Below are positions 14,596 to 51,238 of a stretch of 64,000 nt of DNA, one piece after another; the first letter of the stretch is position 1; every line of letters starts with the position of its first letter. Where the stretch lies: positions 1-64,000 of the forward strand of contig NZ_LVVY01000130.1 of the NCBI RefSeq assembly GCF_001650025.1. Direction: 5' to 3'. The DNA is from Devosia elaeis. Lineage in GTDB: Bacteria; Pseudomonadota; Alphaproteobacteria; Rhizobiales; Devosiaceae. The translations under genes and the position numbers were made by a program. The notes under the pieces were generated by a model, which saw only the letters and a list, made by a program, of their open reading frames with translations, did no database searches and was not told where the DNA came from.

Positions 14596-14814
14596 ATGCG
14601 CGCCCCGACCAATATGGGCATAGCGCCTTGGAATGAGCGCGGCCTGACCAACCTCGAACGCGATCGCATCAGGGCGGCCTGGGCCGTCAAGATGAACTAT
14701 CGCGCCGACCATTATCGGCGCGAGGTTGAGCGCCTCGACGTGCTCATGCAGGCCGAAGGTAATCGCGGACGCTCCCGTCATACGGATCAGCAGGGTTCGG
14801 AGGTGGAGCAGTGA
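14596..14814 (+). CDS. Small early phage protein, unknown
   Basis: A 72-residue hypothetical protein starting 2 bases after ner. The segment NERGLTNLERDRIRAAWAVKMNY...REVERLDVLMQ is helical and charged. I recognise no family. Its 3' end overlaps, on the opposite strand, the 3' end of the leftward gene at 14744-15040. Confidence 0.6.
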   Translation: MRAPTNMGIAPWNERGLTNLERDRIRAAWAVKMNYRADHYRREVERLDVLMQAEGNRGRSRHTDQQGSEVEQ

Positions 14815-15040: not shown

Positions 15041-15136
15041 TTCCCTCTCCTTGGGTTTGTTGAGCCATCCGAAGGTAGGGAAAGGCGGGCGCGGTGTCAC
15101 CGCCGCGTCCGCCATCTCGATCCGGGAGGCGCTGGC

Positions 15137-15712: not shown

Positions 15713-16188
15713 GTGGCCGCAAAAGCTATCGCAACCGCGATGACCGGCAGATGTCGTTCGATGAATATTTCGTGGTTCCGACGCCGACCGAGGTCCGTCC
15801 CGGATCGATCGCCGGTCTCGACCAAGAGCTGCGCCAGGCGTTGAGCCGCAGCCTCAAGGGTCAATCGCTTTCCCGATACGAGGTCGCCGCCAAGATGAGC
15901 GAGATGCTCGGCGACGACATCTCCAAGAACATGCTCGACGCCTATACGGCCGAGAGCCGCGAGACGCATCAGATTTCGGTGGTGCGGCTGGTCGCCATGA
16001 TCCTTGCGACCAAGGATTACGACCTGCTCGCCATGATCGCCGAGAAGGTCGGGTGCCGGCTCCTGGTGGGCGAGGAGGCGATCGGTGCCGAGATCGGCTT
16101 CATCGATCAGGAGATCGAGGAGCTGCGCAACCGGCGCAACCAGCTCAAGCGCATGTCTCCGGTCACGATCAAGCGGGGGCGCACATGA
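15709..16188 (+). CDS. Early phage protein upstream of transposase A
   Basis: A 159-residue protein (MSGRKSYRNRDDRQMSFDEYF...). Its central part, LDQELRQALSRSLKGQSLSRYEVAAKMSEMLGD...MLDAYTAES, reads like a helix-turn-helix domain, and the C-terminus is a coiled coil (IGFIDQEIEELRNRRNQLKRM). It overlaps both neighbours by ATGA and so is translated with transposase A. Genes of this kind precede A in many alphaproteobacterial Mu-like phages; I infer a DNA-binding or regulatory role. Confidence 0.65.
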   Translation: MSGRKSYRNRDDRQMSFDEYFVVPTPTEVRPGSIAGLDQELRQALSRSLKGQSLSRYEVAAKMSEMLGDDISKNMLDAYTAESRETHQISVVRLVAMILATKDYDLLAMIAEKVGCRLLVGEEAIGAEIGFIDQEIEELRNRRNQLKRMSPVTIKRGRT

Positions 16189-18149
16189 TGGAGTGGCGCA
16201 CCGCAGCCGAGTGGGCCGAGCTGGGCCTGCCCGATTTGCCATCGACCCCCAGCGCGCTGATCCGCCGCGCCGCCCGCGAGGGCTGGCAGCGCCGCGATCG
16301 CGCCGGCCGTGGCGGCGGCTTCGAATACCACTTTTCCAGCCTGCCCGACAAAGCGCGCGCAGCCTATATCCTGCGCAGCGCCCCGAAGAAGCCGGTGCGC
16401 GGCAAGGGTTACGACCAGGACGGATTGTGGGCGCGCTTCGAGCGGCTCACCGATGCTCACCACCAGGAGGCCAATCGCCGCCTCAAGGCCCTGGAGGCGG
16501 TCGCCGATCTGACGGCGGCCGGCCTCAAGAAGCTCACGGCTATCGCTCATGTTGCGAGCCAGGCGGAGGTCAACCCGGCCACGATCCGGCGCTGGTTCGC
16601 CATGGTGAAGGGGATCGAGCGGCAGGACTGGCTCGCCGCCCTTGCCCCGAGATACGCCGGAAACACGGAAGCCAAGGCCGAGTGCGATCCGCGCGCCTGG
16701 GACTGGTATGCCGGTCACTATCTGACCCGCCGCCAGCCATCCCATGCCGACACCTATCGCCGCCTGCAAGAAGTCGCGGCGGTTGAGGGCTGGACGATCC
16801 CGTCCGAGCGCACGATGGCGCGGCGGATCGAGACCGATGTGGACCGGCTGACCCTTACCCTGATGCGCGAGGGCGAGGAGGCCATGGCCGCCCTGTTCCC
16901 GCGCCAGCAGCGGGACGCTACCGTGTTCGCCGCTGGCGAGGCGGTCAATGGCGACGGCTTGAAATTCGATCGGCTCTGGGTCCGCTTCCCCGATGGCGAG
17001 ATCATCAACACCGCTACGGCATGGCTCTATCAGGACCTGCGTACCCGCAAAATCCTCGCATGGCGTCTGGGAAAGACGGAAAACACGGACCTGTTCCGGC
17101 TCGCCACCTATGACCTGACCGGCGTCTGCGCGCCCCAGTTCGTATGGCTCGACAACACCCGCGTTGCCGCCAACAAGACGATGACGGCGGGCGCGCCCGG
17201 CCGCCATCGCTTCAAGGACAAGGACTTCGACGGGCTGGGCCTTCTGCCGGCCCTGGGGATGACGCCGAAGTGGACCAATCCCGACAGGGTGACAGGCACG
17301 CCCGGCGCAAAGCCGATCGAGCGCGCCTTCGGCATCGGCGGCATCCACGAGAAGGTCGCCACGCATCCCGCCTTTATCGAGCGCGGCTACAGCAAGGCCA
17401 CCGCGATCGACGCGGAAGAATTGCGGGCGGTGCTCGATCAGGAGATCGCCCGCCATAACAGCCAGAAGGGCCGCCAGACAGAAGCCTGTCGGGGCCTGTT
17501 GAGCTTCGATGAGGCGTGGGAAGAGGCAACCCGCTCGATCGTCTTCCGCAAGTTCTCGCAGCGCCAGCGCAACATGCTGCTGATGGTGCGCGAGGTGGTC
17601 CGCGTCGATCAGACCGGCATGGTGTCGATCAAGGCCGGCCAAAGCACCCATGGCCGCAACCGTTACTGGAGCGAGGCCAGCGCGCGGCTTTCGGGCAAGC
17701 GCATCGTGGCGCATTTCGATCCCGACAATCTGCACGCTGGTATCTTCATCTATTCGCTGGCCGGCGACTATCTGTGCCAGGCCGAGCACCGCCCGAGCGT
17801 TGCCTTCAACGACACCACGACGAGCCGCGAGCTGAAGAAGTTCCGCGAGCAGGCGGCCAAGGCGGCCAAGCGGGAAGCGGCCGCCGTGTCGCGCATGAGC
17901 GCCCTGGAGCGCGCTGCCCTTTACGAAAACGCCACCAAGCCCGCGCCGGACGATCCCGCGCCATCGGTCGATCACAAGGTGATCGCCGCGCACTGGGCCA
18001 AGCCCTTCGATCCGCAGAGCGAGGCCAAGCGCACCGGCACCGATGATGTGCCGTTCGATCTGCCGGAAGACCGGGATGATGAGCTTACCGAGCGCTTCTC
18101 GGCCAACGTGCGCGCGCTGCACCAGAAGTTTCTCAAGGAGCAGCTTTAG
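16185..18149 (+). CDS. Mu-type DDE transposase A
   Basis: A 654-residue transposase catalysing strand transfer for integration and replicative transposition. Residues 1-70 resemble the Mu end-binding/enhancer-type winged helix (WRTAAEWAELGLPDLPSTP). The catalytic triad is D257 (AVNGDGLKFD), D323 (VWLDNTRVAANK) and E379 (GAKPIERAFG), with nearly Mu spacing (66 and 56 residues, against 67 and 56). The C-terminal basic region (ELKKFREQAAKAAKREAAA) should contact DNA and the B protein. Length is close to MuA (663). The start overlaps the upstream stop. Confidence 0.96.
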   Translation: MMEWRTAAEWAELGLPDLPSTPSALIRRAAREGWQRRDRAGRGGGFEYHFSSLPDKARAAYILRSAPKKPVRGKGYDQDGLWARFERLTDAHHQEANRRLKALEAVADLTAAGLKKLTAIAHVASQAEVNPATIRRWFAMVKGIERQDWLAALAPRYAGNTEAKAECDPRAWDWYAGHYLTRRQPSHADTYRRLQEVAAVEGWTIPSERTMARRIETDVDRLTLTLMREGEEAMAALFPRQQRDATVFAAGEAVNGDGLKFDRLWVRFPDGEIINTATAWLYQDLRTRKILAWRLGKTENTDLFRLATYDLTGVCAPQFVWLDNTRVAANKTMTAGAPGRHRFKDKDFDGLGLLPALGMTPKWTNPDRVTGTPGAKPIERAFGIGGIHEKVATHPAFIERGYSKATAIDAEELRAVLDQEIARHNSQKGRQTEACRGLLSFDEAWEEATRSIVFRKFSQRQRNMLLMVREVVRVDQTGMVSIKAGQSTHGRNRYWSEASARLSGKRIVAHFDPDNLHAGIFIYSLAGDYLCQAEHRPSVAFNDTTTSRELKKFREQAAKAAKREAAAVSRMSALERAALYENATKPAPDDPAPSVDHKVIAAHWAKPFDPQSEAKRTGTDDVPFDLPEDRDDELTERFSANVRALHQKFLKEQL

Positions 18150-18226
18150 GGCGGCCCCTTGGAAAAGCGGCCGGCGGCGATAGTACCGCCAACCGGCCAT
18201 CCCCTGAACGAAAGGAGACCCAATAA

Positions 18227-19219
18227 ATGACCGAAGAAACCAACATTGTCCATATCGAGCGTCCGGTGCCCACCGAAAGCGACATGGACACGCTGGTGAG
18301 CGTCCCGACCGATGCTCGCGAGCGCATGCGTGAGGCGATGCGCCAGGCCGGCCTTTCGCAGGCCGCCGCCGCCCGCGAGATCAGCATCTCACCTTCGGCC
18401 CTCAACCAGTGGCTCCAGGGCAAATACGCCGGCTCGAACGAGGAGATCGAGGGTAAGGTCGAAAACTGGCTCTCGGCGCGCGGCCGAAAAGATGATGTCG
18501 CGGGCGCATTGCCGGCCATTCCGACATTCTTTCGCTCGCCGTCGAGCCTGAAAATCATCGACACCCTCGCCTATGGCCAGATGGCCGGCGATATCGTCTG
18601 CATCTATGGCGGTCCCGGCGTTGGCAAGACGGTCAGCCTGCGCCAGTACCGTGACACGAACCCGTCTGTCTGGATCGCCACCATGGCACCGGACAGCGCC
18701 CCGGTGGTCCCCGCGCTTGAGGAGGTCGCCGAGGCGGTCGGCATCAGGGATGCAGCCGGCGGCGCGCGCAAGATCGCTCGCGCCATCCGCCGCCGCGTCG
18801 AGGGCACGCGGGGCCTGCTCATCATTGATGAGGCCCAGCACCTTTCGGTCGCCGCGCTTGAGCAGATGCGCTCGATCCACGACGCCACCGGCATCGGCCT
18901 CGCCCTTGTCGGTAACGAGGCAGTCTATGCCCGTCTCACCGGCGGCACCCGCGCCAGCCATTTCGCCCAGCTCTTCTCCCGCATCGGATCGCGCCTGTTC
19001 ATCTCGCGCCCGACGATCGGCGACGTGCGGGCGCTGGCGGCCGCCTGGAATGTCAAAGGCAAGGCCGAGCTGGACCTGCTCCAGCAGATCGCCAGCAAGC
19101 CCGGCGCGCTGCGCGGGGTCAGCAAGGTGCTTGCCTATGCCGCAATGAGCGGCGGCGGTGCCGAGATCACGGTCTCGGCCCTTCGCCATGCCTGGTCAAA
19201 CCTCGGCGCACAGGAGTGA
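18227..19219 (+). CDS. Mu-type transposition ATPase B
   Basis: A 330-residue AAA+ ATPase that selects target DNA and delivers it to transposase A. Residues 34-70 form a helix-turn-helix (AGLSQAAAAREISISPSALNQW), as in MuB's N-terminal domain. Walker A is GGPGVGKT (128-135) and Walker B is LLIIDEAQH (197-205). A strong ribosome site, GAAAGGAGA, precedes the ATG. It follows transposase A by 77 bases in the same operon. Confidence 0.95.
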   Translation: MTEETNIVHIERPVPTESDMDTLVSVPTDARERMREAMRQAGLSQAAAAREISISPSALNQWLQGKYAGSNEEIEGKVENWLSARGRKDDVAGALPAIPTFFRSPSSLKIIDTLAYGQMAGDIVCIYGGPGVGKTVSLRQYRDTNPSVWIATMAPDSAPVVPALEEVAEAVGIRDAAGGARKIARAIRRRVEGTRGLLIIDEAQHLSVAALEQMRSIHDATGIGLALVGNEAVYARLTGGTRASHFAQLFSRIGSRLFISRPTIGDVRALAAAWNVKGKAELDLLQQIASKPGALRGVSKVLAYAAMSGGGAEITVSALRHAWSNLGAQE

Positions 19220-19224
19220 ACGCC

Positions 19225-19488
19225 ATGCTCGCCAACGAAATCCGCACCCTCATTTCGCAGGTCAACGGGCTGATGCTGACGCGCAGCCTCAACAACACCA
19301 ATCTGCGCCTGGCCGGCGCATCCCTGCTCGACATCGCCGATCGGGTCGAGTGCCTGGAGCGCGCCATTGTCCCGGCCACGCACCGCATCCCCGAGCGCTC
19401 GATCCAGGGCGACAAGGTGGTGCGGCTCGACCAGCATCGCCGCGCCCGCCCGCACGCGGTCCCGGCCGACAATGGAGCGCCGGCATGA
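19225..19488 (+). CDS. Small early phage protein, unknown
   Basis: An 87-residue protein (MLANEIRTLISQVNGLMLTR...). The middle, NLRLAGASLLDIADRVECLERAI, is helical. ATG at 19225 has CAGGAG eight bases upstream; a GTG at 19216 overlapping the ATPase stop is possible. No family recognised. It overlaps the next gene by ATGA. Confidence 0.6.
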   Translation: MLANEIRTLISQVNGLMLTRSLNNTNLRLAGASLLDIADRVECLERAIVPATHRIPERSIQGDKVVRLDQHRRARPHAVPADNGAPA

Positions 19489-20201
19489 GACCCGCGCCCC
19501 TGACCGTTCGCTCGATCGCCAAGGCGGTGAGCGAATATTACCGCATCGACTGGAACGACCTCGCCTCGCCGCGCCGGACATCGAACATCGTCCGCGCCCG
19601 GCAGGTCCTGATCTTCCTTGCCCGCGAGCACACCACGCTCTCGCTGCCCCAGATCGGCCGCCGCGTTGGCGGCCGGGATCACACCACCGTCCTGCATTCG
19701 TGCCGCAAGATCGGCCACCTGCGCGATGTCGATCCCGAGATGCGCCAGGAGCTGCGCGATATCGAGGAGATCATCTACGAGCAGGCCGAGGAAAACGCGC
19801 ACTACCAGGTCGCGCCGGACCCCGACACCGATCCTTTCGAGATCGCCGATCGCATCATGAGTGAGCCGCAGGACGATTGGCGGCTGACCGCCTCCGAGCT
19901 GCGCACGCTCGCCGAGGCCGTCATCATGCGCAAGCCGATCGATGAGCCGGACCCAGACCCGGTTCCGCTGCCCACGCCGGAGCCGGTCGAGGTCAAGCCG
20001 ACCCTGCCGGTCCCGGCACCTGCGGCCCAGCCGATCCGGCCTCTCGTCCCGACGCCCATCGCCAGCGTGCTCAAGGCATTCCGCAACCTTGAAAACGCCC
20101 GCTTCACGCCCCGCGAGCGCGGCGAGCGAGAGGCGTTTGAGCGCGCTTTAAACACCCTTTCAAACCACCTGAACACGGAGAGCAATCATGTCAGGCACTG
20201 A
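19485..20201 (+). CDS. DnaA domain IV-like DNA-binding phage protein
   Basis: A 238-residue protein whose N-terminal 100 residues match the DNA-binding domain IV of DnaA: SLPQIGRRVGGRDHTTVLHS (residues 53-72) holds the signature GGRDHTTVLH, and the helices before it fit. It lacks the DnaA AAA+ domain. It could bind DnaA-box-like sites to steer host replication proteins to the phage or block initiation. A proline-rich linker (about 150-190) leads to a basic C-terminus. The 3' end contains copy B of a dispersed repeat. Start overlaps the upstream stop. Confidence 0.85.
   Translation: MRPAPLTVRSIAKAVSEYYRIDWNDLASPRRTSNIVRARQVLIFLAREHTTLSLPQIGRRVGGRDHTTVLHSCRKIGHLRDVDPEMRQELRDIEEIIYEQAEENAHYQVAPDPDTDPFEIADRIMSEPQDDWRLTASELRTLAEAVIMRKPIDEPDPDPVPLPTPEPVEVKPTLPVPAPAAQPIRPLVPTPIASVLKAFRNLENARFTPRERGEREAFERALNTLSNHLNTESNHVRH
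20136..20168. repeat. Dispersed TTTAAA repeat, copy B
   Basis: TTTGAGCGC then GCTTTAAACACCC then TTTCAAACC, inside the 3' end of the DnaA-domain gene. It matches inverted copy D near the right end over most of its 30 bases. Confidence 0.55.
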
Positions 20202-20859
20202 AACGATCGCCGCCATGGAGGCGGATAACTACGCCCAGACCGGCCAGATCGAGCTGATGGGCGACCAGTACATGAAGGATGCGGGCGGCCGCCTCGTCCC
20301 CGTCGAAGTGGTCAAGCCCGAGCACCGTCTCGAAGATCAGACCGTGCGCAAGATGATCGGCTATGCCGAGGAGCTGTCCGCGCGCATCGCCCGGTTTCGC
20401 GGCCACACATTCGATGACATCGCCAGCACCCTCGACCTCATGGCCGAGAAGTACGGCACCAAAAAGGGTGGCACCAAGGGCAACGTCACGCTCACCAGCT
20501 ATGACGGCCTGCTCAAGGTCACCGTCCAGGTGCAGGAGCAGCTGACCTTCGGGCCGGAATTGCAGATCGCCAAGAACCTGGTCGATCAGTGCATCGGCTC
20601 CTGGGCCGAGGGCGCGAACGATAAAATCCGGGCGCTGGTCGAGCACGCCTTCCAGGTGGACAAGGAGGGCCGGATCAACCGCGCCGCGCTCTTCCAGCTG
20701 CGCCGCCTCAACATTGATGATGCCGACTGGAAGGCCGCCATGGAGGCGCTGGGCGATGCCATCCGCGTCATCGGCTCCAAGGAATATGTGCGCTTCTACC
20801 GCCGCCCGGATGCCCGCGCCCGGTGGGAGCCAATCACCATCGATCTAGCGGCCGCGTGA
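20188..20859 (+). CDS. DUF3164 family phage protein
   Basis: A 223-residue protein with the DUF3164 pattern seen in Mu-like phages: YMKDAGGRLVPVEVVKPEH near the N-terminus, then FRGHTFDDIASTLDLMAEKYG, KGGTKGNVTLTSYDG and a C-terminal KEYVRFYRR. Function is unknown in the family, but it is a constant member of early operons next to transposition genes. Its start lies inside the upstream gene's last codons, preceded by CGGAGAG. Confidence 0.85.
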   Translation: MSGTETIAAMEADNYAQTGQIELMGDQYMKDAGGRLVPVEVVKPEHRLEDQTVRKMIGYAEELSARIARFRGHTFDDIASTLDLMAEKYGTKKGGTKGNVTLTSYDGLLKVTVQVQEQLTFGPELQIAKNLVDQCIGSWAEGANDKIRALVEHAFQVDKEGRINRAALFQLRRLNIDDADWKAAMEALGDAIRVIGSKEYVRFYRRPDARARWEPITIDLAAA

Positions 20860-21128
20860 TGATTTCCCCGCGCGCCTATGAGCTGCACGCCCAGCTCGGC
20901 CTCCTGCTGTCCGGCGCGCGGCTCGGCGACAGCGTTCATGCGGCCACCCTGACGCTTGCCGGCATGGCCATCGTTGCCGCCGACACGCCCGAGGAAGCCG
21001 AAATCTTCTTGCGCAAGGTCGCCGCCGATGCCGCCCGCGTGGTGGCCAGCAATTGGGCGATGAAGCCGACCATCGACGCCCAGGTCGCGGCGGCCACCGC
21101 CGCCGCCAATTCTGAAAAACCCAACTGA
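20859..21128 (+). CDS. Small early phage protein, unknown
   Basis: An 89-residue protein (MISPRAYELHAQLGLLLSGA...) that is alanine-rich and helical, with LTLAGMAIVAADTPEEAEIFLRKV in the middle. TGATG overlap with the upstream stop. No family recognised; no clear membrane segment. Confidence 0.6.
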   Translation: MISPRAYELHAQLGLLLSGARLGDSVHAATLTLAGMAIVAADTPEEAEIFLRKVAADAARVVASNWAMKPTIDAQVAAATAAANSEKPN

Positions 21129-21142
21129 ACAGGAGAACGGAC

Positions 21143-22267
21143 ATGCTTACGAACGAAATGCAGATGCGTGCCGAGCTGCTCGGCAAGGTCCTTGAAACCG
21201 GCGTCCCGCCGATGGAGGCGCTCGACCATGCGCGCCAGCTCTGGGACTTCATCGACTGCGGCAACAATGTGATTGAGGAGTGCGGCGTCTGCTCGGCCGA
21301 CAACGTGATCGGCGTGATGCTCTCCATGGACGGCAGCTGGCAGCGCTTCGACGGCAGCGGCCGTGAGCTGGACTGGCTCGACTTTGATCGCCACCCGATC
21401 TATTCGCGCATCCGCCCCGTCGAGCAGGACGGCCAGGCCATGGTGGAAATCCCCGCCTTCTATGTCCGGGTCGATCATGATGGCGGCCTTCTGACCTGGG
21501 CGGTGTCCGATCAGCCGATGGGCGGCTTTATCTTGCACCCGGCCTTCCGTCGCCCGGACGGCACCGAGGCCAGCGCCATTCGCATCGGGGCCTATGCCGC
21601 CGCGCGCCGCGACGGGAACGCGGCGGTGGCCGCCGGCCTCAAACCGTGGACCTCGATCAACTTCACCTCCGCGCAGGAGCAATGCCTGGCGCTGGGGCCG
21701 GGCTGGCGCATGTGGTCGATCTACGACCTCTCGGCCATCCAGATTTTGATGATGATCGAGAAGGGTGGCGCGGACATGCAGACCCTGATCGCGCGCGGCA
21801 ATGTCGATGGCGGCGGCCCGCTCGGCGGCGGCGAGAGCAGCGCCAGTTGGCGCGGCCTGCATGAGCTTTGGGGCAATGTCTGGCAGATGGTCGATGGCCT
21901 CACCATCGCGGGCGACGAGACGATCAATGTCTGGAGCACCGAGCGGCCGGGTAGCGGCGAGTGGGTCTCGACGGGCGTCAAGTATGGCCCCGGCAGCGAT
22001 GACGGCTTCCCGACGAGCTTCCATGTCGAGGCCGGCGACGGCTTCGACCTTTCGCTCCTGTTCCTGCCCAGCGCGGTGACCGACGACAGCGACGACGCGG
22101 TGATCCCGGACTGGACCTGGGGTCATTGGGGCGACGGCGAAACCGTCCCTTATTGTGGGGGCGACTGGAACAGCGGCGTCAATGCCGGGGCGTTCGCTCT
22201 GAACCTCGGGAACGGGCGGTCGGACGTGAGCACGAATGTCGGCTTCCGGCCCGCTTTCGTCATCTGA
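21143..22267 (+). CDS. DGR target protein 1 (C-type-lectin/FGE-like fold), early-operon copy
   Basis: A 374-residue protein in which the last 35 residues are a DGR variable region. Residues 1-60 are unique. From about VEIPAFYVRVDHDG onward it shows the formylglycine-generating-enzyme-like C-type lectin pattern of DGR targets (ILHPAF, WRMWSIYDLSAIQI, LHELWGNVWQMVDG), ending VGFRPAFVI. The 3' end is VR1, matching the template repeat 27 kb away. No signal peptide is seen. It sits in the early operon, well away from tail genes, so it may act in the lysogen or early infection, not on the virion. A normal ribosome site (AACAGGAGAAC) precedes the ATG. Confidence 0.9.
   Translation: MLTNEMQMRAELLGKVLETGVPPMEALDHARQLWDFIDCGNNVIEECGVCSADNVIGVMLSMDGSWQRFDGSGRELDWLDFDRHPIYSRIRPVEQDGQAMVEIPAFYVRVDHDGGLLTWAVSDQPMGGFILHPAFRRPDGTEASAIRIGAYAAARRDGNAAVAAGLKPWTSINFTSAQEQCLALGPGWRMWSIYDLSAIQILMMIEKGGADMQTLIARGNVDGGGPLGGGESSASWRGLHELWGNVWQMVDGLTIAGDETINVWSTERPGSGEWVSTGVKYGPGSDDGFPTSFHVEAGDGFDLSLLFLPSAVTDDSDDAVIPDWTWGHWGDGETVPYCGGDWNSGVNAGAFALNLGNGRSDVSTNVGFRPAFVI
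22161..22259 (+). repeat. DGR variable repeat 1 (VR1)
   Basis: Aligned without gaps to the template repeat at offset 27,746. In the 3' 75 bases (22181-22255) six positions differ, five at template adenines (all A to G). In the 5' 20 bases another eight differ, six not at adenines. The 3' part therefore looks overwritten by this template and the 5' part looks older. The 3' segment CGGCCCGCTTTCGT is shared with VR2. Confidence 0.88.
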
Positions 22268-22291
22268 AATCTGCGCTCCTGCAATCAGGCG

Positions 22292-22309
22292 GCCCGCCGG
22301 AAGGCGGGC
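22292..22309. other. DGR target hairpin downstream of VR1 (GGAA tetraloop)
   Basis: GCCCGCC, loop GGAA, GGCGGGC: a perfect 7-bp stem 36 bases after the VR1 homology ends. Known DGR targets carry a hairpin or cruciform with a GRNA-type tetraloop just past the VR that promotes homing. The loop fits that rule. No T-run follows, so it is not a typical terminator. Confidence 0.7.
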
Positions 22310-22396
22310 TGTCACCCCGGCGAAACCGCGAAGGCGGTCTGCGGATACGGGCAACCCGCACTGATGAGCCAGCCCAGCGAGAGAGGAGAGTTTGCC

Positions 22397-22702
22397 ATGC
22401 AACGGCAGATGCAGTTCTCTGATGTATATCCCGCCGCGCGCGACACCGAGACCAGCCGCGCGGCCGCCGCGTCCGTCGCACCCAGCGCGGCCCGCGTGCG
22501 CTCCATGGTGATGAACGCCATCCGCGCCTCGGCCCATGATGGTCTCACAGCCGACGAGGTGGCCGGCCGCATCGGCATGTCGATCCTCACCGTCCGGCCT
22601 CGGGTGTCCGAGCTGGGCAAGGCCGGCGCGATCGTGGACGCCGGCATCCGTCGCCCCAACCAGTCCGGCCGCCGCGCCATCGTCTGGAGGGCGCGGGCAT
22701 GA
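22397..22702 (+). CDS. Winged-helix early protein
   Basis: A 101-residue protein. Its C-terminal part, MNAIRASAHDGLTADEVAGRIGMSILTVRPRVSELGKAGAIVDAG, is a standard winged helix for DNA binding. ATG at 22397 has AGAGGAGAG just upstream and is preferred to ATG at 22364. ATGA overlap with the next gene. Likely an early regulatory or DNA-metabolism protein. Confidence 0.75.
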   Translation: MQRQMQFSDVYPAARDTETSRAAAASVAPSAARVRSMVMNAIRASAHDGLTADEVAGRIGMSILTVRPRVSELGKAGAIVDAGIRRPNQSGRRAIVWRARA

Positions 22703-22923
22703 AGAAGGTCTCGATCGGTGCCCAGATCATGGAGGTCGAGTACGAGCTGGCCATGCGCCGCTCCGTCTACCAGCGCCAGGTCAGCACCGGAAAGATGAAG
22801 CGCGCCGAGGCGACGCTTCACACCGAGCAGATGGAGGCGGTGCTCGCCACCCTCAAATTCGTTCGCGACAACGAGGATGACTTCCGCGCCTTCATGGCGG
22901 CAAAGCGGGAGGTTGCAGCATGA
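22699..22923 (+). CDS. Small early phage protein, unknown
   Basis: A 74-residue, mostly helical protein (MKKVSIGAQIMEVEYELAMR...). The central part, GKMKRAEATLHTEQMEAVLATLKFVRDNE, recurs in small early proteins of Mu-like phages of alphaproteobacteria, but I cannot name a function. ATGA overlaps on both sides couple it to the winged-helix gene and gemA. Confidence 0.65.
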   Translation: MKKVSIGAQIMEVEYELAMRRSVYQRQVSTGKMKRAEATLHTEQMEAVLATLKFVRDNEDDFRAFMAAKREVAA

Positions 22924-23354
22924 GCCAGTCCATAAAGGCGATCCATGTCTGCCGCCGCCAGGTGGTCGGGCTGGAGGATGAGGCCGTCTGGCGCGACTTC
23001 CTTGAGAACGTCTCCGGCTCCCGATCCGTCAAGGAGATGAGCGAGCGCCAGCGCGAGGAGGTGATCGCCGAGCTGCGCAAGCGCGGCGCGAAGGCGGCCC
23101 GGCCGTTCCGCAAGTCCGACAAGCCGCACGTCCGCAAGGTCTTCGCGATCTGGGGCGATATGTGCCGCGAAGGCATCCCCGACAAGGCGAACCGGGACGG
23201 CCTCCGCGCCTTCGTCGCTCGGGTCACCCGGCGCGATGACCGACCGGATGGTGTCGGCGATCCCGAATGGCTCGACCCCGCCGATGCGCGGATGGTCACC
23301 GAGGCCCTCAAATCGTGGCGCGGCCGCGAGATGGCAAAGAGAAAGGCAGGATGA
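22920..23354 (+). CDS. gemA: GemA-like regulatory protein (Mu gp16)
   Basis: A 144-residue protein with the GemA pattern: IKAIHVCRRQVVGLEDEAVWRDFL near the N-terminus, FAIWGDMCREG in the middle, and a C-terminal DARMVTEALKSW helix. In Mu, GemA changes host gene expression, DNA supercoiling and division during development. It lies late in the early operon, before the Mor-type activator, as in Mu. Confidence 0.85.
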   Translation: MSQSIKAIHVCRRQVVGLEDEAVWRDFLENVSGSRSVKEMSERQREEVIAELRKRGAKAARPFRKSDKPHVRKVFAIWGDMCREGIPDKANRDGLRAFVARVTRRDDRPDGVGDPEWLDPADARMVTEALKSWRGREMAKRKAG

Positions 23355-23530
23355 TGAGCGAAGTTGCGGAGCTGAATATCGAGGTTTCATCCGGTGCCGA
23401 TCACGTCGCCATGAGTGTCCGCTCGGGCGGCGTCGCCATCCAGGTGGTGATGACGCTGGAGACGGCCGGCGCTCTGGCCGAGGTCCTCGCCCGCGCCGCC
23501 AGCGGGCAGGAGGTGGACGATGAAGAGTGA
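23351..23530 (+). CDS. Small early phage protein, unknown
   Basis: A 59-residue acidic protein (MMSEVAELNIEVSSGADHVA...). It looks like a single small beta-alpha fold. ATG at 23351 overlaps the gemA stop; the second ATG at 23354 is equally possible. No family recognised. Confidence 0.55.
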   Translation: MMSEVAELNIEVSSGADHVAMSVRSGGVAIQVVMTLETAGALAEVLARAASGQEVDDEE

Positions 23531-23708
23531 TCTTGTCGATATCGACGTTCAAATCCATGCGCGCACCGAGCGGGCGATCCTCGTTTCGGATGATGGCGAG
23601 CGCGAGGGCGCCGTCTGGCTTCCGCTCGCCGTCGAGGTGGCGGCCCAGGGCAAGCATCATGTCGTGACGATGCCGGAATGGCTGGCCGTGGACCGGGGGC
23701 TGATCTGA
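23520..23708 (+). CDS. Small early phage protein, unknown
   Basis: A 62-residue protein (MKSDLVDIDVQIHARTERAI...). The text DDGEREGAVWLPLAVEV...VVTMPEWLAVDRGL suggests a small beta-rich domain. It starts 11 bases inside the upstream gene and overlaps the next by TGATG. Unknown function. Confidence 0.6.
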   Translation: MKSDLVDIDVQIHARTERAILVSDDGEREGAVWLPLAVEVAAQGKHHVVTMPEWLAVDRGLI

Positions 23709-23956
23709 TGGCCCGCCGCAAGAACAGGTCCTGGCGCGTCAAGATCGACAAGGCCGGCCTCGCCCGCCTCGGTAGCGCGCTTGTCCACGACCACGACGAC
23801 ATGATGGCGCGTGGATATGTCATGTGCGGCTCGTCCGGCCTCTGGCGGACCCGGCGCGGCACCTTCACGGCCCGGCTTGCCTATCGGTGCAGCGATCGCA
23901 CCGTGAGCATCGTGCATACCATTCGCGGCATCCAGCTGGGGGCCGGCGATGTCTGA
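23708..23956 (+). CDS. Small early phage protein, unknown
   Basis: An 82-residue basic protein (MARRKNRSWRVKIDKAGLAR...). One region has YVMCGSSGLWRTRRGTF with a single cysteine, not a zinc finger. It overlaps the activator gene by 8 bases. Unknown function. Confidence 0.55.
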   Translation: MARRKNRSWRVKIDKAGLARLGSALVHDHDDMMARGYVMCGSSGLWRTRRGTFTARLAYRCSDRTVSIVHTIRGIQLGAGDV

Positions 23957-24344
23957 CGATCCGGTCCTGGACGAGCTGGACGATCTGCCTCCGACCCTTC
24001 GGCGCATTGCCGAGGTGGCCGGGATGACGGCGGCCGTCCAGCTTGCCCATGACCATGGAGGCACCGAAATCTATATCCGCAAGAAACTCGACGGCGACCA
24101 TATCCTCGTGCGCTCGGTCGGGATGCGCGCCGCCGCCCTGATCCTCGACGCCCTCGGCGCTGGGGCGCTTGAGGTTCCGCTGGGGCCGAGCTGCTATGGC
24201 CGCCAGCTCTCCCGTTCGATCGCTGCGCGTCTCGCGGCCGGTCATTCCGAAAGCCAGATCGCCCGCGCCCTCGGTTGCCATATCCGCACCGTGCGCCGCC
24301 ACCGCGCCAACCTACCGACATCGCAGCTCGACCTGTTCGAGTGA
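23949..24344 (+). CDS. mor: Mor/C-type late transcription activator
   Basis: A 131-residue DNA-binding protein of the Mor/C family. The N-terminal dimerisation part is LPPTLRRIAEVAGMTAAVQLAHDHGG and the C-terminal helix-turn-helix is GHSESQIARALGCHIRTVRR. In Mu, Mor activates the middle promoter and the related C activates late promoters. Only one such gene is seen here, last in the early operon and 130 bases before the lysis gene. Three matching 22-base motifs before late operons are its probable targets. Confidence 0.9.
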   Translation: MSDDPVLDELDDLPPTLRRIAEVAGMTAAVQLAHDHGGTEIYIRKKLDGDHILVRSVGMRAAALILDALGAGALEVPLGPSCYGRQLSRSIAARLAAGHSESQIARALGCHIRTVRRHRANLPTSQLDLFE

Positions 24345-24395
24345 TCTTGCGCGGCCGCGCTTTTCCGTACATCGTAAGCAAGGATTGCCGGAACC

Positions 24396-24417
24396 CCGGA
24401 ACGCTGTCCGGGTGTGA
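24396..24417 (+). promoter_or_regulatory. Late-promoter activator motif 1 (lysis operon)
   Basis: CCGGAACGCTGTCCGG followed by GTGTGA, 58 bases before the endolysin ATG. It matches the two later copies at 19 of 22 positions. A short GC palindrome (24349-24360) with TTTT just after mor may end early transcription here. By position it corresponds to Mu Plys. Confidence 0.65.
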
Positions 24418-24475
24418 GCTGGCCGCCGCATTGGGCACGCTGATTTGCGAATGAGTGCAAATCGAGCCGGGACCA

Positions 24476-25216
24476 ATGACCACCATCGAAATCCAGAGAC
24501 AGCTCGCTGCCCTCGGCTTTGATCCGGGACCGATCGACGGCATCATGGGGCCGCGCACCCGCGCCGCCATCCGCGCCTTCCAGACCTCTCGCCGCCTACT
24601 CGTGGACGGGATCGTCGGGCCGCAGACGCGCGCCGCCTTCGCTGCCACCGCGCCCGCACCCTCGACGCCATCCGCGCCATCCTCGTCTCCGGCCGCTTCG
24701 ATCGTGCCGGCGGCCTGGATGCCGCGCGCCGCCATGCGCCGGGTGCATCTGCACTGGACGGCGGGCGCGTACAACGCCAACGGCCTCGACCAGAACGCCT
24801 ATCACCTCCTGATCGACGGGACGCCGAAGCTGGTTCGCGGCAAGTGGCCGATCAGCGCCAACGTCACCTGTCCGCGCGGGGCCTATGCCGCCCATACGCT
24901 CAACGCCAACACCGGCGCGATCGGCATCTCGATCTGCTGCATGGGCGGGCCGGGTGTGACGATGGCGAACCACGGCAAATATCCGATGAAGCGCGAGCAG
25001 TGGGAGATGGCTGTCCAGGCCATCGCCGAGCTTTGCCGCTTCTATTCCATCCCCGTCACCGACAAGACGGTGCTGACCCACGCCGAGGTGCAGCCGAACC
25101 TCGGCATCCGCCAGAACGGCAAGTGGGACATCGCCACCCTGTCCTTCGACCGCTCTTTCGACACCGCGCGCAAGGTGGGTGACCGCCTGCGCCGCGAGGT
25201 CGCCGCCCGCCTTTGA
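24476..25216 (+). CDS. Endolysin: peptidoglycan-binding plus N-acetylmuramoyl-L-alanine amidase
   Basis: A 246-residue enzyme that cuts the amide bond between muramic acid and the stem peptide for lysis. Residues 1-57 are a peptidoglycan-binding repeat pair (LGFDPGPIDGIMGPRTRAAI and LLVDGIVGPQTRAAF). A proline/serine linker (58-80) leads to an amidase-2 domain with zinc ligands in RVHLHWTAG and VLTHAEV. No signal peptide, so release needs the holin. ATG at 24476 is chosen for domain fit; GTG at 24455 is possible. Confidence 0.9.
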   Translation: MTTIEIQRQLAALGFDPGPIDGIMGPRTRAAIRAFQTSRRLLVDGIVGPQTRAAFAATAPAPSTPSAPSSSPAASIVPAAWMPRAAMRRVHLHWTAGAYNANGLDQNAYHLLIDGTPKLVRGKWPISANVTCPRGAYAAHTLNANTGAIGISICCMGGPGVTMANHGKYPMKREQWEMAVQAIAELCRFYSIPVTDKTVLTHAEVQPNLGIRQNGKWDIATLSFDRSFDTARKVGDRLRREVAARL

Positions 25217-25232
25217 ACCGGAGAAACCACCG

Positions 25233-25691
25233 ATGCCCCTCAAGCTGCCTTTCGCCCTGATGATCCTGATCGTGGCGATCCTCGCGTTCCTTGCCTTCTC
25301 GCCGACCCTGGCCCTGGCGGCCGACAGCACCGTGTCGCTCGCCCCGGCCGTCGATCTGGTCGGGCCTTATATCGTCTCGATCCTGGCGGCACTCTTTGCT
25401 GCCTTACTCGGCTGGCTGTCCAAGCGGCTCAATGACTGGCTCGGTTTCGAGATCGACGGGCGCAGCCGCGAGGCCCTCCATAGCGCCGCCGTCACCGGCC
25501 TCGACCATGCAATCGCCCTTCTGCGATCGCGCGGCGAGGAGGTGAAGTTCGATGTCCGCGCGCCCGTTGTCGCCGAGGCCGTCGATTGGGTGCTGACCAA
25601 GGGTGCGCCCGGCGCGGTCCAGCGCTTCAACCTCACGCCGGCCGATGTCGAGGCGATCGTCACGGCCAAGCTCAACCAGGTCCTCAAATGA
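25233..25691 (+). CDS. Putative holin (LL-H type)
   Basis: A 152-residue membrane protein. Residues 6-30 form a hydrophobic segment (FALMILIVAILAFLAF...), and a second segment lies near YIVSILAALFAALLGWL (about 48-64). The rest is soluble and helical, ending LTPADVEAIVTAKLNQVLK. This layout and its place after the endolysin fit LL-H-type holins. Direct homology cannot be shown here. Confidence 0.65.
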   Translation: MPLKLPFALMILIVAILAFLAFSPTLALAADSTVSLAPAVDLVGPYIVSILAALFAALLGWLSKRLNDWLGFEIDGRSREALHSAAVTGLDHAIALLRSRGEEVKFDVRAPVVAEAVDWVLTKGAPGAVQRFNLTPADVEAIVTAKLNQVLK

Positions 25692-25879
25692 TCGAGGGCA
25701 TCGTCGCCTTCCTGGTCGGCCTGCTGGCCCGGATCGCGCAGGATTTCATCACCGATTATCGCCGCGCACGGGCCGACGAATGGCAAGGGGAAGTCAATGA
25801 CAGGATGCTTGAGGCCGGGACCGATCGCCCTCGTGATCGTGGCGAGCTTGTTGGCCGGATGCGCGACGGGACCTTCTAG
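25688..25879 (+). CDS. Small lysis-region protein (possible i-spanin)
   Basis: A 63-residue protein with one N-terminal hydrophobic segment (IEGIVAFLVGLLARIAQ) and a charged tail. ATGA overlap with the holin-like gene, and its 3' half overlaps the lipoprotein gene in another frame. The overlapping pair of anchored protein plus lipoprotein resembles spanin pairs, but this protein is short for an i-spanin. Confidence 0.55.
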   Translation: MIEGIVAFLVGLLARIAQDFITDYRRARADEWQGEVNDRMLEAGTDRPRDRGELVGRMRDGTF

Positions 25880-26036
25880 CGTGGCGTGCGTTCCGGTGGC
25901 GGCCTATCCCGCCACCTTCCTCGATCGCGCCGCCGATGAGGTCGAGCACCTGCCCGATGGCAGTGCGGTCGAGCAGATGCTGGCCGACTACCAGGTGATG
26001 CGCGCCCAGGCGCGCGCCTGCGCGGCCAGCCGATAA
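25797..26036 (+). CDS. Small phage lipoprotein (o-spanin/Rz1-like)
   Basis: A 79-residue protein with a signal peptide and lipobox, IVASLLAGC (Cys22), so it should be lipid-anchored in the outer membrane. The mature part ends QMLADYQVMRAQARAC, a pattern seen in phage lysis lipoproteins. Overlap with the upstream small membrane gene supports a spanin-type role in the last lysis step. Confidence 0.65.
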   Translation: MTGCLRPGPIALVIVASLLAGCATGPSSVACVPVAAYPATFLDRAADEVEHLPDGSAVEQMLADYQVMRAQARACAASR

Positions 26037-26046
26037 GGAGTGCGGG

Positions 26047-26184
26047 ATGCACGATCGATACTATAAAGAGCGGCGGCGCTGGCTGGTCATCAACTGGTGC
26101 CTTGCCGTGCTCATCATTACAGCGGTCATTGCGCTGATCGCCCTCGACGCCAGTCTCGCGCCGGTCGCAGGAGGCAGGTCATGA
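26047..26184 (+). CDS. Tiny single-span membrane protein
   Basis: 45 residues: a basic start (MHDRYYKERRR) then WLVINWCLAVLIITAVIAL, one membrane helix. It begins 10 bases after the lipoprotein stop, with AAGGAGTGCGGG upstream, and overlaps the next ATG by ATGA. It may be a second holin or antiholin; the family is not recognised. Confidence 0.6.
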   Translation: MHDRYYKERRRWLVINWCLAVLIITAVIALIALDASLAPVAGGRS

Positions 26185-48371: not shown

Positions 48372-49448
48372 ATGGGTGTCACCATTTCCACCCCGGACGC
48401 CTTGCGTCAGTCCGTCGAGGCCGCCAGCGGCGGCGTCAACACGGTGCTCTATGACGCAAAGGGCTATCCGTCGATCATGTGCGTTGTCCCGCGCTTCAAT
48501 GTCGAGGACATCGATCCCGGTCTCGGGTCGGGCGTGCATCCCGCCTTCGTGGTGGGCGGCGTCCAGAAGAGCGAAATCTTCATCGGCAAATTCCAGGCGG
48601 TTCTGCATGACGATCATGCGCTCTCGCTGCCCGGTCAGGACCCGCAGGCCAACATCAATTTTACGGCCTCGGACGCGGCCTGCGCGATTAAGGGGCCGGG
48701 CTGGCACATGATGACGAATGCCGAGTTCGTGGCGGTCGCGTTGTGGTGCTGGAAGAACGGCTTCCAGCCGCGCGGCAACACCAATTGGGGGCGGCATCAT
48801 GACCAGACCTATGAGGTCGGCCGCCGCACCGATGGCCATGCGCCGGGCGTGTCCGAGGGGCATGGGCGTGTCCTGACCGGCTCGGGGCCGGTGAGCTGGT
48901 TCCACGACAACAGCCCGGCAGGCATTGCCGATCTTTGCGGCAACGTCTGGGAATGGGTTCGCGGCCTTCGCCTCGTTGATGGCGAAATCCAGATCATCCC
49001 CGACAACAACGCCGCCGTGACGGACATCGACCATAGCCCCGGCTCGGACCTTTGGCGGGCGATCCTGCAAGACGGCACGCTGGTGAACCCCGGCACGGCC
49101 AACACGCTCAAGTATGACGCCTCGAACGCGAACGGCTCGGGCAATCCGATCCTCTCGACCAGCGTCACCAACCAGTCGGACGGCGACACCAGCACCTCGC
49201 AGCCGTTCAGCGCGATGGCCACCGCCAGCGGGGTTTCGGCACCGAACCTTGCCAAGCTGCTCGGCCTCTTCCCGCATGATGGCGATGTCGAGGGCCGCCA
49301 CTATGCCCGCAACGTGGGCGAGCGCGTGCCGCTACGTGGCGGCGGTCGGGCCGATGGCGCGTATGCCGGGGCGTTCGCTCTGCACCTCAGCAACGAGCGG
49401 TCGAGCGTGAGCACGGCTGTCGGCATCCGGCCCGCTTTCGTGCTCTGA
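48372..49448 (+). CDS. DGR target protein 2 (C-type-lectin/FGE-like), tail-region copy
   Basis: A 358-residue protein next to the fibre genes, so probably the receptor-binding tip. The FGE-like lectin pattern is FIGKFQAVLHDDHALSLPGQ, AACAIKGPGWHMMTNAEFVA, ADLCGNVWEWVRGLRLVDGE and the C-terminal GIRPAFVL. Residues 317-358 are encoded by VR2. Template AAY codons fall at solvent-type positions: in VR2 they read Ala, Asp, Tyr, His, Ser, Ser, Ser and Ala, the classic DGR diversified set. Followed by the VR2 hairpin, avd, TR and RT. Confidence 0.93.
   Translation: MGVTISTPDALRQSVEAASGGVNTVLYDAKGYPSIMCVVPRFNVEDIDPGLGSGVHPAFVVGGVQKSEIFIGKFQAVLHDDHALSLPGQDPQANINFTASDAACAIKGPGWHMMTNAEFVAVALWCWKNGFQPRGNTNWGRHHDQTYEVGRRTDGHAPGVSEGHGRVLTGSGPVSWFHDNSPAGIADLCGNVWEWVRGLRLVDGEIQIIPDNNAAVTDIDHSPGSDLWRAILQDGTLVNPGTANTLKYDASNANGSGNPILSTSVTNQSDGDTSTSQPFSAMATASGVSAPNLAKLLGLFPHDGDVEGRHYARNVGERVPLRGGGRADGAYAGAFALHLSNERSSVSTAVGIRPAFVL
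49320..49436 (+). repeat. DGR variable repeat 2 (VR2)
   Basis: 117 bases aligning to the template repeat at offset 565 without gaps. Twelve positions differ, eleven at template adenines (7 A to G, 3 A to C, 1 A to T) and one T to A at 49425. This adenine bias is the mark of DGR mutagenic homing. It ends at the target's stop region. Confidence 0.96.
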
Positions 49449-49470: not shown

Positions 49471-49492
49471 GGGACGGGCGATAGCCCGTCCC
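49471..49492. other. DGR target hairpin downstream of VR2 (GATA tetraloop)
   Basis: GGGACGGGC, loop GATA, GCCCGTCCC: a perfect 9-bp stem 34 bases after VR2. The loop fits the GRNA rule of DGR target hairpins. TTCTCTT follows, so a terminator role is possible as well. Confidence 0.75.
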
Positions 49493-49528
49493 TTCTCTTG
49501 AACACCATTGCGTATATCGGGGGCTGCG

Positions 49529-49876
49529 GTGGACGATCTTAAAATCCGTCGCAAGTGCGAGGACATGATTGCTTACGGCTATGTGGTGCTGAAACAGTTT
49601 CCGAAGGCCGAGCGGCATGTGCTCTCGCAGGAAATCCGCACCACCATGTGGGCGCTGCTCCGGCTCATAATCATCTGCAATCGCCGGTACTTCAAAAAGA
49701 CCACGATGCAGGACCTTGACGCCGAGCTGGACCTGTTGCGCAGCCAGATCAGGATGGCCCAGAAGCTGGGGCATCTCTCCTTCAAAAGTTACGAGGTATG
49801 GAGCCGCCATCTCGATGAGATCGGCCGGATGATCGGTGGGTGGTTCAAGAGCCTGCAAGAACAGGGGCGCGGGTAA
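49529..49876 (+). CDS. avd: Avd: DGR accessory variability determinant
   Basis: A 115-residue all-helical basic protein: KIRRKCEDMIAYGYVVLKQF, KAERHVLSQEIRTTMWALLR, MQDLDAELDLLRSQIRMAQ and YEVWSRHLDEIGRMIGGWFK. These are the four helices of the Avd bundle, which forms a pentamer that binds RT and template RNA and is needed for mutagenic copying. GTG at 49529 with a GGGGG upstream is chosen; TTG at 49508 would add seven residues. It ends 8 bases before TR. Confidence 0.88.
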   Translation: MDDLKIRRKCEDMIAYGYVVLKQFPKAERHVLSQEIRTTMWALLRLIIICNRRYFKKTTMQDLDAELDLLRSQIRMAQKLGHLSFKSYEVWSRHLDEIGRMIGGWFKSLQEQGRG

Positions 49877-50161
49877 TGTGGCTTGAGCGCGTGCCGCTAC
49901 GTGGCGGCAGTCGGAACAATGGCGCGAATGCCGGGGCGTTCGCTCTGAACCTCAACAACGAGCGGTCGAACGTGAACACGAATGTCGGCTTCCGGCCCGC
50001 TCTCGGAGATCGCCAGAAGTTGAAGCCTCACGGGGCTTCTCCCAGAGCACCATCCGAAAGGCCCTGCGATCCTCGGCCAAGTGCCGAAAAACTGAACAGG
50101 TCGGAGCGGGACAGTAGCCGCCGCATGCCGGCGACCCCTTGCTCCGGCCGCCCTCGGGGGA
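49877..50161 (+). ncRNA. DGR template RNA region (TR plus spacer)
   Basis: The 285-base gap between avd and RT. In studied DGRs the RT primes on and copies an RNA containing the TR, the end of avd and the spacer before rt. Here TR occupies 49885-50001 and the spacer 50002-50161. The spacer contains GC-rich stem candidates (for example CCGCCGCATGCCGGCG). RNA ends are not visible in sequence. Confidence 0.75.
49885..50001 (+). repeat. DGR template repeat (TR)
   Basis: 117 bases with 23 adenines, most in AAC/AAT codon positions of the target frame (AAC AAT, AAT, AAC, AAC AAC, AAC, AAC, AAT). Aligns with VR2 over its full length and VR1 over its 3' part. After CCGGCCCGCT the TR reads CTCGGAG while both VRs read TTCGT, the IMH*/IMH type difference that sets direction of homing. 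Confidence 0.96.
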
Positions 50162-51238
50162 ATGATGGCCAAGACCTATAGCGACCTCTATGGATCGTTC
50201 ACCACGTTCGAGGCGCTGCACCGCGCTTGGGGCCGGGTCATCAAGGGCCGCCGCGCCCAGCAGGACGTGCTGCAATTCGAGCGCGACCTCGAACCCAACC
50301 TGATCGACATCCAGAACAGCCTGATCTGGAAAACCTATCGCACCGGCCCGTATCGCCACTTCAAGGTGTTCGAGCCGAAGGAGCGCGGCATCGCTGCCCT
50401 GCCGCTCAAGGACCGCATCGTCCAGCACGCCCTGATCGAGACCATCGACCCGATCTGGGGCAAACGCTTCATCTTCGACACCTATGCGTGCCGCCCCGGC
50501 AAGGGCACCCATGCCGGTGCCGATCGTGCGCAGGCGTTCCTGCGCGAAGCCCTGCGCGAGCAAGGCTCGATCTATGTGCTCAAGGCCGATGTCTCGAAGT
50601 ATTTCCCGAGCGTCTGCCATGACGTGCTCAAGCGGCTGATCCGCAAGCGCATCGCCTGCCCGGACACGCTCTGGCTGATCGAGGGCATCATCGACAGCGC
50701 CGCCGATCCCGGCGCGATCATGCCGCGCGGCATCCCGATCGGAAACCTCACCTCCCAGCTCTTCGCCAACGTCTATCTGCACGAGCTGGATGAGTTCGTG
50801 AAATACGAGCTGCGCGAGAAGCGATACCTTCGCTACATGGACGATTTCGCCATCATCGGCGGGACCAAGGCCCACCTCCATGACGTGCGGCGCACGATCG
50901 AGGATTTCCTCCACGCCCAGCTCGGCCTGCGCCTCAACCACAAAACGCAGGTGTTCCCCGTCTCGACCAAGAACGGCCGCCCGCTCGACTTCCTCGGCTA
51001 TCGCATCTGGGCGACCCACCGGAAGATCAGAAAGGACAGCGCCGGCCGGATGCGCCGCAAGATGAAGCGCATGGCGCGCCAATATCACGAGGGCAAGATC
51101 AGCCTCGATCAGGTCAGTCAGGTGGTGATGAGCTGGGTCGGCCATGCCGGCCATGCAGACACATTCAGGTTGCGCAGCCGGGTGCTGGGCGATGTCGCCT
51201 TCATCCCGCCGCCGCGTGGAAGGAGGAGCCATGACTGA
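50162..51238 (+). CDS. DGR reverse transcriptase
   Basis: A 358-residue RT. The fingers/palm motifs are KADVSKYF (141-148, catalytic D143), the DGR-type motif 4 IPIGNLTSQ (191-199), where other RTs usually have a Q-G sequence, and YMDD (225-228). SLIWKTYRTGPYRHF and PLKDRIVQHAL lie before them. Size matches Bordetella phage Brt (about 330). It copies TR RNA with errors at adenines. Starts at ATG 50162 or 50165; overlaps the methylase start by 8 bases. Confidence 0.95.
   Translation: MMAKTYSDLYGSFTTFEALHRAWGRVIKGRRAQQDVLQFERDLEPNLIDIQNSLIWKTYRTGPYRHFKVFEPKERGIAALPLKDRIVQHALIETIDPIWGKRFIFDTYACRPGKGTHAGADRAQAFLREALREQGSIYVLKADVSKYFPSVCHDVLKRLIRKRIACPDTLWLIEGIIDSAADPGAIMPRGIPIGNLTSQLFANVYLHELDEFVKYELREKRYLRYMDDFAIIGGTKAHLHDVRRTIEDFLHAQLGLRLNHKTQVFPVSTKNGRPLDFLGYRIWATHRKIRKDSAGRMRRKMKRMARQYHEGKISLDQVSQVVMSWVGHAGHADTFRLRSRVLGDVAFIPPPRGRRSHD

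Follow-up and report, generated by a model that had tools for sequence, protein, structure and literature searches.

A remote variable repeat in the early operon of a Mu-like Devosia prophage: a very probable second target of its diversity-generating retroelement

Does the diversity-generating retroelement (DGR) of a Mu-like prophage in Devosia elaeis act on a gene of the early operon, 27 kb away from its template and reverse transcriptase (RT), and, if so, what could a diversified protein be doing inside the cell? The locus lies in a window of 64,000 nucleotides (nt), the whole stretch of DNA that was analyzed (contig NZ_LVVY01000130.1, positions 1 to 64,000). The window contains a Mu-like prophage, as evidenced by the order of its MuA, MuB, GemA, and Mor-like genes (Pfam and PHROG), with head and tail genes recognized by eye only from the open reading frames (ORFs); IMG/VR record 2841880164 is the same phage (100% identity over 15,149 bases). 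At the prophage end is a DGR, in which a DGR-type RT with a YMDD motif is beside a template repeat (TR) and an Avd gene. The tail-side target of this element ends in a variable repeat (VR), VR2, that differs from the TR at adenines. A first-pass annotation had proposed a second target, ending in VR1, among the transposition-phase genes rather than the tail genes. Our analysis bears this out, as the gene was found between the DUF3164 and GemA genes, downstream of MuA and MuB, in a position that recurs in other phages, and VR1 very probably is, or was until recently, a target of the DGR within the early operon.

The 3′ end of the early target gene was found to be repeated at VR2 (49317-49480, 74%) and at the TR (49882-50045, 65%). 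When the 121 nt of the TR were placed in register, VR1 at 22139 matched 96 positions and VR2 at 49320 matched 108, while the next-best site in the window matched 57 (plus strand); with this difference, a chance repeat was rejected as the source of VR1. A whole-genome BLAST search with the TR returned the TR itself, VR2 (89%), VR1 (22167-22259, 88%), along with two hits only 25 and 18 nt long. The expectation that VR1 would have the same 3′ segment as VR2 and a tetraloop hairpin of its own was also confirmed. The segment CGGCCCGCTTTCGT, which resembles an initiation of mutagenic homing (IMH) site, is present at 22247-22260 and 49428-49441, with CGGCCCGCTCTCGG in its place in the TR, and hairpins are located 3′ of VR1 (loop GGAA) and VR2 (loop GATA) at identical spacing. 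Phage DGRs are described as having GC-rich stems of 7 to 10 bp with GRNA loops (PMC3240598, accessible part); VR1 thus has both a landing segment differing from the TR and, downstream of it, a GC-rich hairpin with a GRNA loop. Early members of the beta type, among the relatives described below, were found by a scripted hairpin scan to have stems that are shorter, with loops of 3 nt, or hairpins of other kinds. A further sequence said to be shared after the stop codon, TCTGAAATCTG (22263-22273), is indeed present, but it contains the stop codon (22265-22267) and so does not lie 3′ of it.

Closer comparison revealed VR1 to be a mosaic. Between 22191 and 22250, 5 of 14 template adenines and 1 of 46 other bases were changed, while between 22152 and 22190 the changes were at 3 of 8 adenines and 9 of 31 other bases. 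The stretch of 31 nt at 22155-22185 has nine differences from its own TR, two of them at A. When compared with the templates of four relatives (G138, G139, G140, and G141, with G163 left out; here and below, L and G codes denote the records of relatives, viral contigs and named genomes, that were compared with the window), the same stretch has only three differences (G138, G140, and G141) or five (G139), two at A in each case. In the 5′ part, the VR of the relative L006 (90% identical) agrees with VR1 except at positions where one of the two has A, and the VR1 3′ part holds bases of its own TR that L006 is without. Because only the 3′ part fits the present TR, and the 5′ part is a better fit to the templates of relatives, the last copying into VR1 looks to have reached only part way from the 3′ end. 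The 5′ part of the TR (49901-49931) is itself unlike the templates of relatives, with the Trp codon of the variable motif reading Arg; the template therefore appears to have drifted. The features of the locus are collected in Table 1. A DNA adenine methylase-like gene, read by eye, adjoins the RT gene at 51230-52043.

Table 1. Coordinates of the prophage genes and DGR elements in the window
Feature	Position	Strand	Basis or remark
MuA-type transposase (ORF limits)	16053..18149	+	Pfam DDE_2, HTH_Tnp_Mu_1, HTH_Tnp_Mu_2, Mu-transpos_C
MuB-type ATPase	18227..19219	+	Pfam Phage-MuB_C 5e-21, AAA_22
DUF3164 early gene	20188..20859	+	Pfam PF11363 2e-75
Small gene overlapping DUF3164 stop, ending 14 nt before target gene	20859..21128	+	Sequence; no PHROG match
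Early target gene (DGR target very probable), 374 residues, predicted C-type-lectin/FGE-like fold	21143..22267	+	ORF open throughout; Foldseek, profile
N-terminal helical segment of early target	21143..21265	+	Shared with L006, L079-L082, L105 (alignment); helices 4-17 and 23-46 in model
VR1 5′ part, poor fit to present TR	22139..22166	+	Identical in L006
VR1 part fitting present TR	22167..22259	+	88%
3′ VR segment CGGCCCGCTTTCGT (IMH-like)	22247..22260	+	Same as VR2, unlike TR
Hairpin after VR1, 9-bp stem, loop GGAA (GRNA type)	22290..22311	+	Rule from PMC3240598 (accessible part)
Small winged-helix-like gene	22364..22702	+	Pfam RPA_C 2e-5, weak HTH matches; PHROG 1123
GemA	22920..23354	+	Pfam PF06252 3.5e-22
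Mor-like activator of next transcription phase	23949..24344	+	PHROG 836 late transcriptional activator 9e-24
Second DGR target gene (late, tail-side), 358 residues	48372..49448	+	Pfam FGE-sulfatase 1.7e-5; PHROG 2889 2.7e-141
VR2	49320..49440	+	Mismatches to TR at A: 11/13, p=6.7e-8
Hairpin after VR2, 9-bp stem, loop GATA	49471..49492	+	
Accessory protein Avd (ORF limits)	49508..49876	+	Pfam bAvd 2.4e-31
TR	49885..50005	+	
DGR RT	50162..51238	+	YMDD read from sequence; Pfam RVT_1 2e-18; PHROG 1423 4e-142

An alignment of three early proteins was used to scan named genomes and viral contigs for relatives, and the template relationship was examined for 17 other early genes with an RT in the same genome or record. 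The early VR matched a TR of its own source with a bias toward adenine in 16 of these 17. For the 15 VRs that were tabulated, this bias relative to a TR near the RT had p values from 4.9e-13 to 4.9e-5; in G163, the sixteenth, 10 of 11 mismatches were at A (p 3.8e-7). When the 15 tabulated VRs were pooled, 182 of 210 mismatches were at a template A (92 to G, 46 to T, and 44 to C). Four relatives stood outside the comparison, as no convincing RT was found in L006, L009, L092 (one weak match in its genome), or L108. For G140, G144, and G150 the RT and the early gene are on different contigs, likely of the same prophage. The frame of the G141 RT (G141:C14 1357-2412) matches except for a single internal TGA, and this RT served solely to find the TR. 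L025 was left out of the RT alignment since its match contains stop codons.

In several phages a single TR was found to serve both targets. Bordetella hinzii, for example, has all mismatches to the same TR at A in both its early VR (9/9) and its late VR (7/7), and in Gulbenkiania the corresponding values are 12/16 and 12/15. Three other genomes have tandem RTs with a second template, TR2, between them (G144:C7 11340-14084, G150:C95 6704-9448, and G154:C43 198891-201643). Over a 98-nt core, TR2 differs from the remote early VR at 12 positions in G144 (10 at A), 17 in G150 (15 at A), and 16 in G154 (15 at A), while in each of these genomes the first TR and the tail-side VR have 11 differences, every one at A. 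Within the 15 to 20 kb around each RT pair that was searched, TR2 had no local match of at least 60% except for a weak match at or next to the first TR (67/110 in G150 and 68/102 in G154). Thus, in these three genomes TR2 and RT2 have no target nearby and appear to act on the early gene. A tandem RT arrangement was also observed at G177:C1 72211-74378, where the second RT lacks about the first 65 residues, no fitting TR was detected, and an early-type target is on the record.

The rate of change along the gene was compared for five pairs of close relatives. The VRs had diverged by 16.3 to 23.9% and the gene bodies by 2.8 to 8.8%, with ratios of nonsynonymous to synonymous substitution rates (dN/dS) of 0.08 to 0.22 for the bodies; for the window and L006, the values were 23.9% in VR1 and 8.8% in the body. 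The VR changes were mostly amino acid changing, though the sites are few, and the pair L081/L082 is without a silent VR change. A sixth pair, L085/L086, was left out, as its VR (33.7%) and body (5.1%) differences were accompanied by 38.8% divergence in the stretch after the stop codon. By these comparisons, the gene bodies are under purifying selection while the VRs change fast.

The early proteins were also found to be a lineage apart from the tail targets, as judged from a tree of 39 protein cores that excluded the variable end (the last 45 residues). With early and late labels taken from gene surroundings (except for L092 and L093, labeled early by form alone), the labels required two changes on this tree, which has a midpoint root and some long branches, compared with a mean of 13.4 after shuffling and none of 500 shuffles as low. 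With only two label changes, the idea that each phage had recently duplicated its tail target was not supported. The early protein of the window groups with the early proteins of other phages and not with its own tail-side target, although the 3′ part of VR1 fits its own template; the history of the body thus differs from that of the VR, as template copying would give.

The family comparison included 20 early-type proteins, that of the window among them, with readable surroundings for 18 (not L092 and L093), from phages of Alpha-, Beta-, and Gammaproteobacteria. Most of the genes were within early operons or next to genes for recombination or DNA methylases, and by the tests used none of the 18 with readable surroundings was in a tail module. 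In 8 of the 20 (the window, L006, L081, L082, and L105 to L108) the gene was inside the transposition operon, between MuA/MuB and GemA/Mor, and outside the 20 the same was found for G163 and G164, the latter a repeat of L082. Elsewhere, the gene was (i) between a MuB-like ATPase gene and packaging genes (L086) or ahead of ParB-like and MuA genes (L079 and L080); (ii) ahead of ERF, YqaJ, and SSB genes (L098), YqaJ (L095), an SNF2 helicase gene (L088), or a nucleotide pyrophosphohydrolase gene (L085); (iii) between DNA methylase and primase genes (L009) or ahead of a C5 methylase gene (L084); and (iv) at a prophage edge, as read by eye (L096). An ORF at L084 6056-7162 that looked by eye like an integrase gene had no Pfam match and was not used. 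With respect to spacing, in the window, G163, G164, and L105 the early gene either begins 14 to 15 nt after its neighbor or shares 4 nt with it. The distance in the window is 14 nt from the preceding small gene, and a winged-helix-like gene follows before GemA. The corresponding gap is 98 nt in L106 and 220 nt in L108.

The family is rare. Besides its own genome, 1 of 135 genomes of the taxonomic family had a match (E 1e-3), and none was detected in a class sample of 288 at E 1e-30. A search of the 50,697 INPHARED records with the window protein gave 21 matches at E 1e-3, none spanning more than 80% of its length; of four matches inspected, three were tail-side or beside an RT, one was unclear, and none was early. 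A beta-type early protein had no INPHARED match at 1e-10.

The structure predicted for the early protein of the window (mean pLDDT 74.5, pTM 0.76; weak at residues 38-51, 283-300, and 310-330) had as its best Foldseek match the DGR variable protein TaqVP (5vf4, E 1e-14), followed by Mtd and TvpA, and a profile of the early family likewise retrieved 5vf4 from the PDB sequences (5e-21). On this model, the protein is a C-type-lectin fold with the VR at its C-terminus. It had no Pfam match, and neither a signal peptide nor a membrane segment was seen in its hydropathy profile. The 19-residue hydropathy remained below 1.6 in 19 of the 20 early proteins, with L092 at 1.69; the hydrophobic start of L085, L086, and L093 (11-residue mean 2.09) was read as a first strand. 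Three members (L106, at 8664-8861, L107, and L108) have another N-terminus in place of the helical segment, and it holds GPVGCGKS, a Walker A-like motif spotted by eye. A P-loop was considered for this N-terminus; it had no Pfam match and no phage record, a search with it returned only these three contigs, and the structure model is weak there.

Taken together, these results suggest a course of events in which the RT, whose gene closes the late region, would rewrite VR1 and VR2 in progeny DNA; the timing, when progeny genomes are made, is proposed because of this position of the gene. The rewritten VR2 would be displayed on the virion and tested at adsorption, outside the next cell, while the rewritten VR1 would be expressed at once inside it. 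There, the early protein may bind, in the cytoplasm, a factor that differs from host to host, for instance a defense or take-over target. A cytoplasmic binder seems the most likely role, since the binding domain of the protein is C-type-lectin-like and no signal for export is evident in it. Host take-over and anti-defense genes are common in the early accessory slots of temperate phages, and the place of the gene favors, as the first-pass annotation had surmised, a role other than receptor binding. We give close to an even chance to this proposal as a whole, in which the prophage DGR has VR1 as its second, remote target, rewritten late and expressed early, with a product that probably binds a variable host factor in the cytoplasm. 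Its extension to the family is more tentative: it is possible, if rather doubtful, that temperate phages of Proteobacteria have long carried hypervariable intracellular binders as a lineage of their own, a phage analogue of antibodies. A DGR, in some phages a second one acting on this gene only, would diversify the early protein beforehand in the progeny, and each virion would then bring its own binder against internal factors of the next host, together with its own variant of the tail protein.

A number of observations weigh against this proposal, and several alternatives were considered. The gene might encode a virion protein, a tail-tip or head decoration that aids adsorption, with its early place incidental. 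Phage DGR targets are mostly taken to be host attachment proteins (PMC8144416, accessible part), the fold and type of VR are those of the tail targets, and the best PHROG match of the early protein is 5302, a "tail protein." The early proteins match PHROG 5302 only at positions 228-542 of 548 (234-542 for the window protein), and the 855-residue tail target of L087 matches the same stretch (226-541), so the match does not separate early from tail targets. Outside a Rhodobacterales-like group, the tail targets are 846 to 945 residues long (one of 409), compared with 314 to 399 for the early proteins, and carry about 500 more N-terminal residues; however, the tail-side target of the window is itself similar in size to the early protein and without the long N-terminal part, so a missing tail-attachment part is no distinction in this phage. 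Counter to a virion role are the absence of the 18 early-type genes from tail modules, the close spacing to early neighbors, the longer N-terminal parts of the tail targets, and the GPVGCGKS motif carried instead by L106 to L108. We regard a virion protein as unlikely.

A second alternative concerns only this prophage, in which VR1 may be a relic, a past target that is no longer rewritten. The VR1 of the window is the weakest case in the family: over the 105 nt aligned to the TR only 7 of 16 mismatches are at A, a weak bias (p=0.017); the 5′ part misfits the present TR; and within the matching part (22167-22259) there are five non-A mismatches and all six changes of A are to G, compared with 109 of 220 in the other VRs pooled (chance about 0.015). 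Nonetheless, the landing segment and hairpin are intact, VR1 holds in its 3′ part the own-template bases that L006 is without, and its divergence from L006 far exceeds that of the gene body, making a relic distinctly unlikely. Among the relatives, the only early VR of the 17 without a template was that of G177, for which no match was found in the region around its RTs.

The protein may otherwise act on rival phages or incoming copies, excluding superinfection or masking receptors in the lysogen, with diversification serving to track such rivals. Consistent with this are its form, a binding domain that stands by itself and is a homologue of the tail target, the position of the L080 gene after an S24 repressor gene on the other strand (L079 is alike by eye), and the location of L084 and L096 near a contig or prophage end; the latter two are without a clear early operon and in a circular form may be placed next to late genes, another point that counts against our proposal. 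On the other hand, the early operon of Mu is repressed in the lysogen, and in Mu-like phages the operon should thus be silent there. The window protein is without a visible signal peptide or membrane segment, and no promoter-like site was detected at 14500-26500 in a weak scan that is uninformative in this organism. Overall, an action on rival phages is very unlikely. Ordinary recombination or gene conversion between the two paralogues, which do have common 3′ ends, is hardly credible and was rejected by the A-bias of the TR mismatches in 16 of 17 other sources, transversions from A included, as well as by the sites changed (of 20 TR adenines, 6 in VR1, 10 in VR2, and 2 in both) and by the fit of a TR2 between two RTs to a remote early gene.

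Two further findings also weigh against the proposal. No match to the PADLOC defense library was obtained for the three early proteins tested. The early gene was present in only 4 of 25 records of RT relatives of at least 30 kb, its own phage included (records that may be fragments), and in G166 several genes, one of them HU-like, occupy the place between DUF3164 and GemA, as read by eye; absence from most RT relatives and an otherwise filled slot fit an accessory gene.

The arrangement has partial counterparts. The DGR of BPP-1 with its target Mtd has the same RT, Avd, TR, VR, landing sequence, GC-rich hairpin with a GRNA loop, and FGE-type lectin fold, but varies one tail protein (PMC3240598, accessible part), whereas in the phage of the window a second target, not a tail gene, is located at a distance of 27 kb. 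TaqVP of a Thermus aquaticus prophage is likewise a single-domain variable protein of FGE type, described as monomeric; unlike VR1, its VR is about 0.5 kb from the TR, beside the RT (PMC6328139 and PMC4605624, accessible parts). DGRs with multiple VRs, including those of DiGReF (PMC3521204), the tentaclins (PMC10743442), and Faecalibacterium prophages (PMC11792537), similarly have one template and two or more paralogous or different targets, though in the accessible text these are mostly in single cassettes or of unknown role, and the remote ORFs are not tied to early phage operons. PMC3521204 notes that target ORFs can be remote and that VRs can be on the opposite strand, and PMC8144416 states that its own screen would miss remote targets (accessible parts of both). 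Closest is a 2025 report on gut prophages, in which one DGR likewise has a second VR far from the RT, near methyltransferase genes and near genes of the phage-host arms race; its accessible part covers four species and includes no family, tree, template test, or operon placement, compared with a family in phages of Proteobacteria here, many of them Mu-like and some with a second TR-RT pair. Among the literature matches listed, mostly outside subscription journals, no title or opening of an abstract concerned a transposition-operon or early-operon gene as the target of a DGR. A distal second VR in gut prophages was therefore known already, and the early-operon target family in phages of Proteobacteria appears to be a new variation on it.

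The family makes the second target more than a curiosity of one prophage. Screens that search only near the RT miss such remote targets, and, as named strains such as Antarctobacter heliothermus DSM 11445 and Gulbenkiania mobilis DSM 18507 carry both targets, the proposed reading is testable. If true, it would mean that phages adapt in advance to events after entry into the cell, with a non-tail family under purifying selection that keeps a variable end and sometimes a template and RT of its own.
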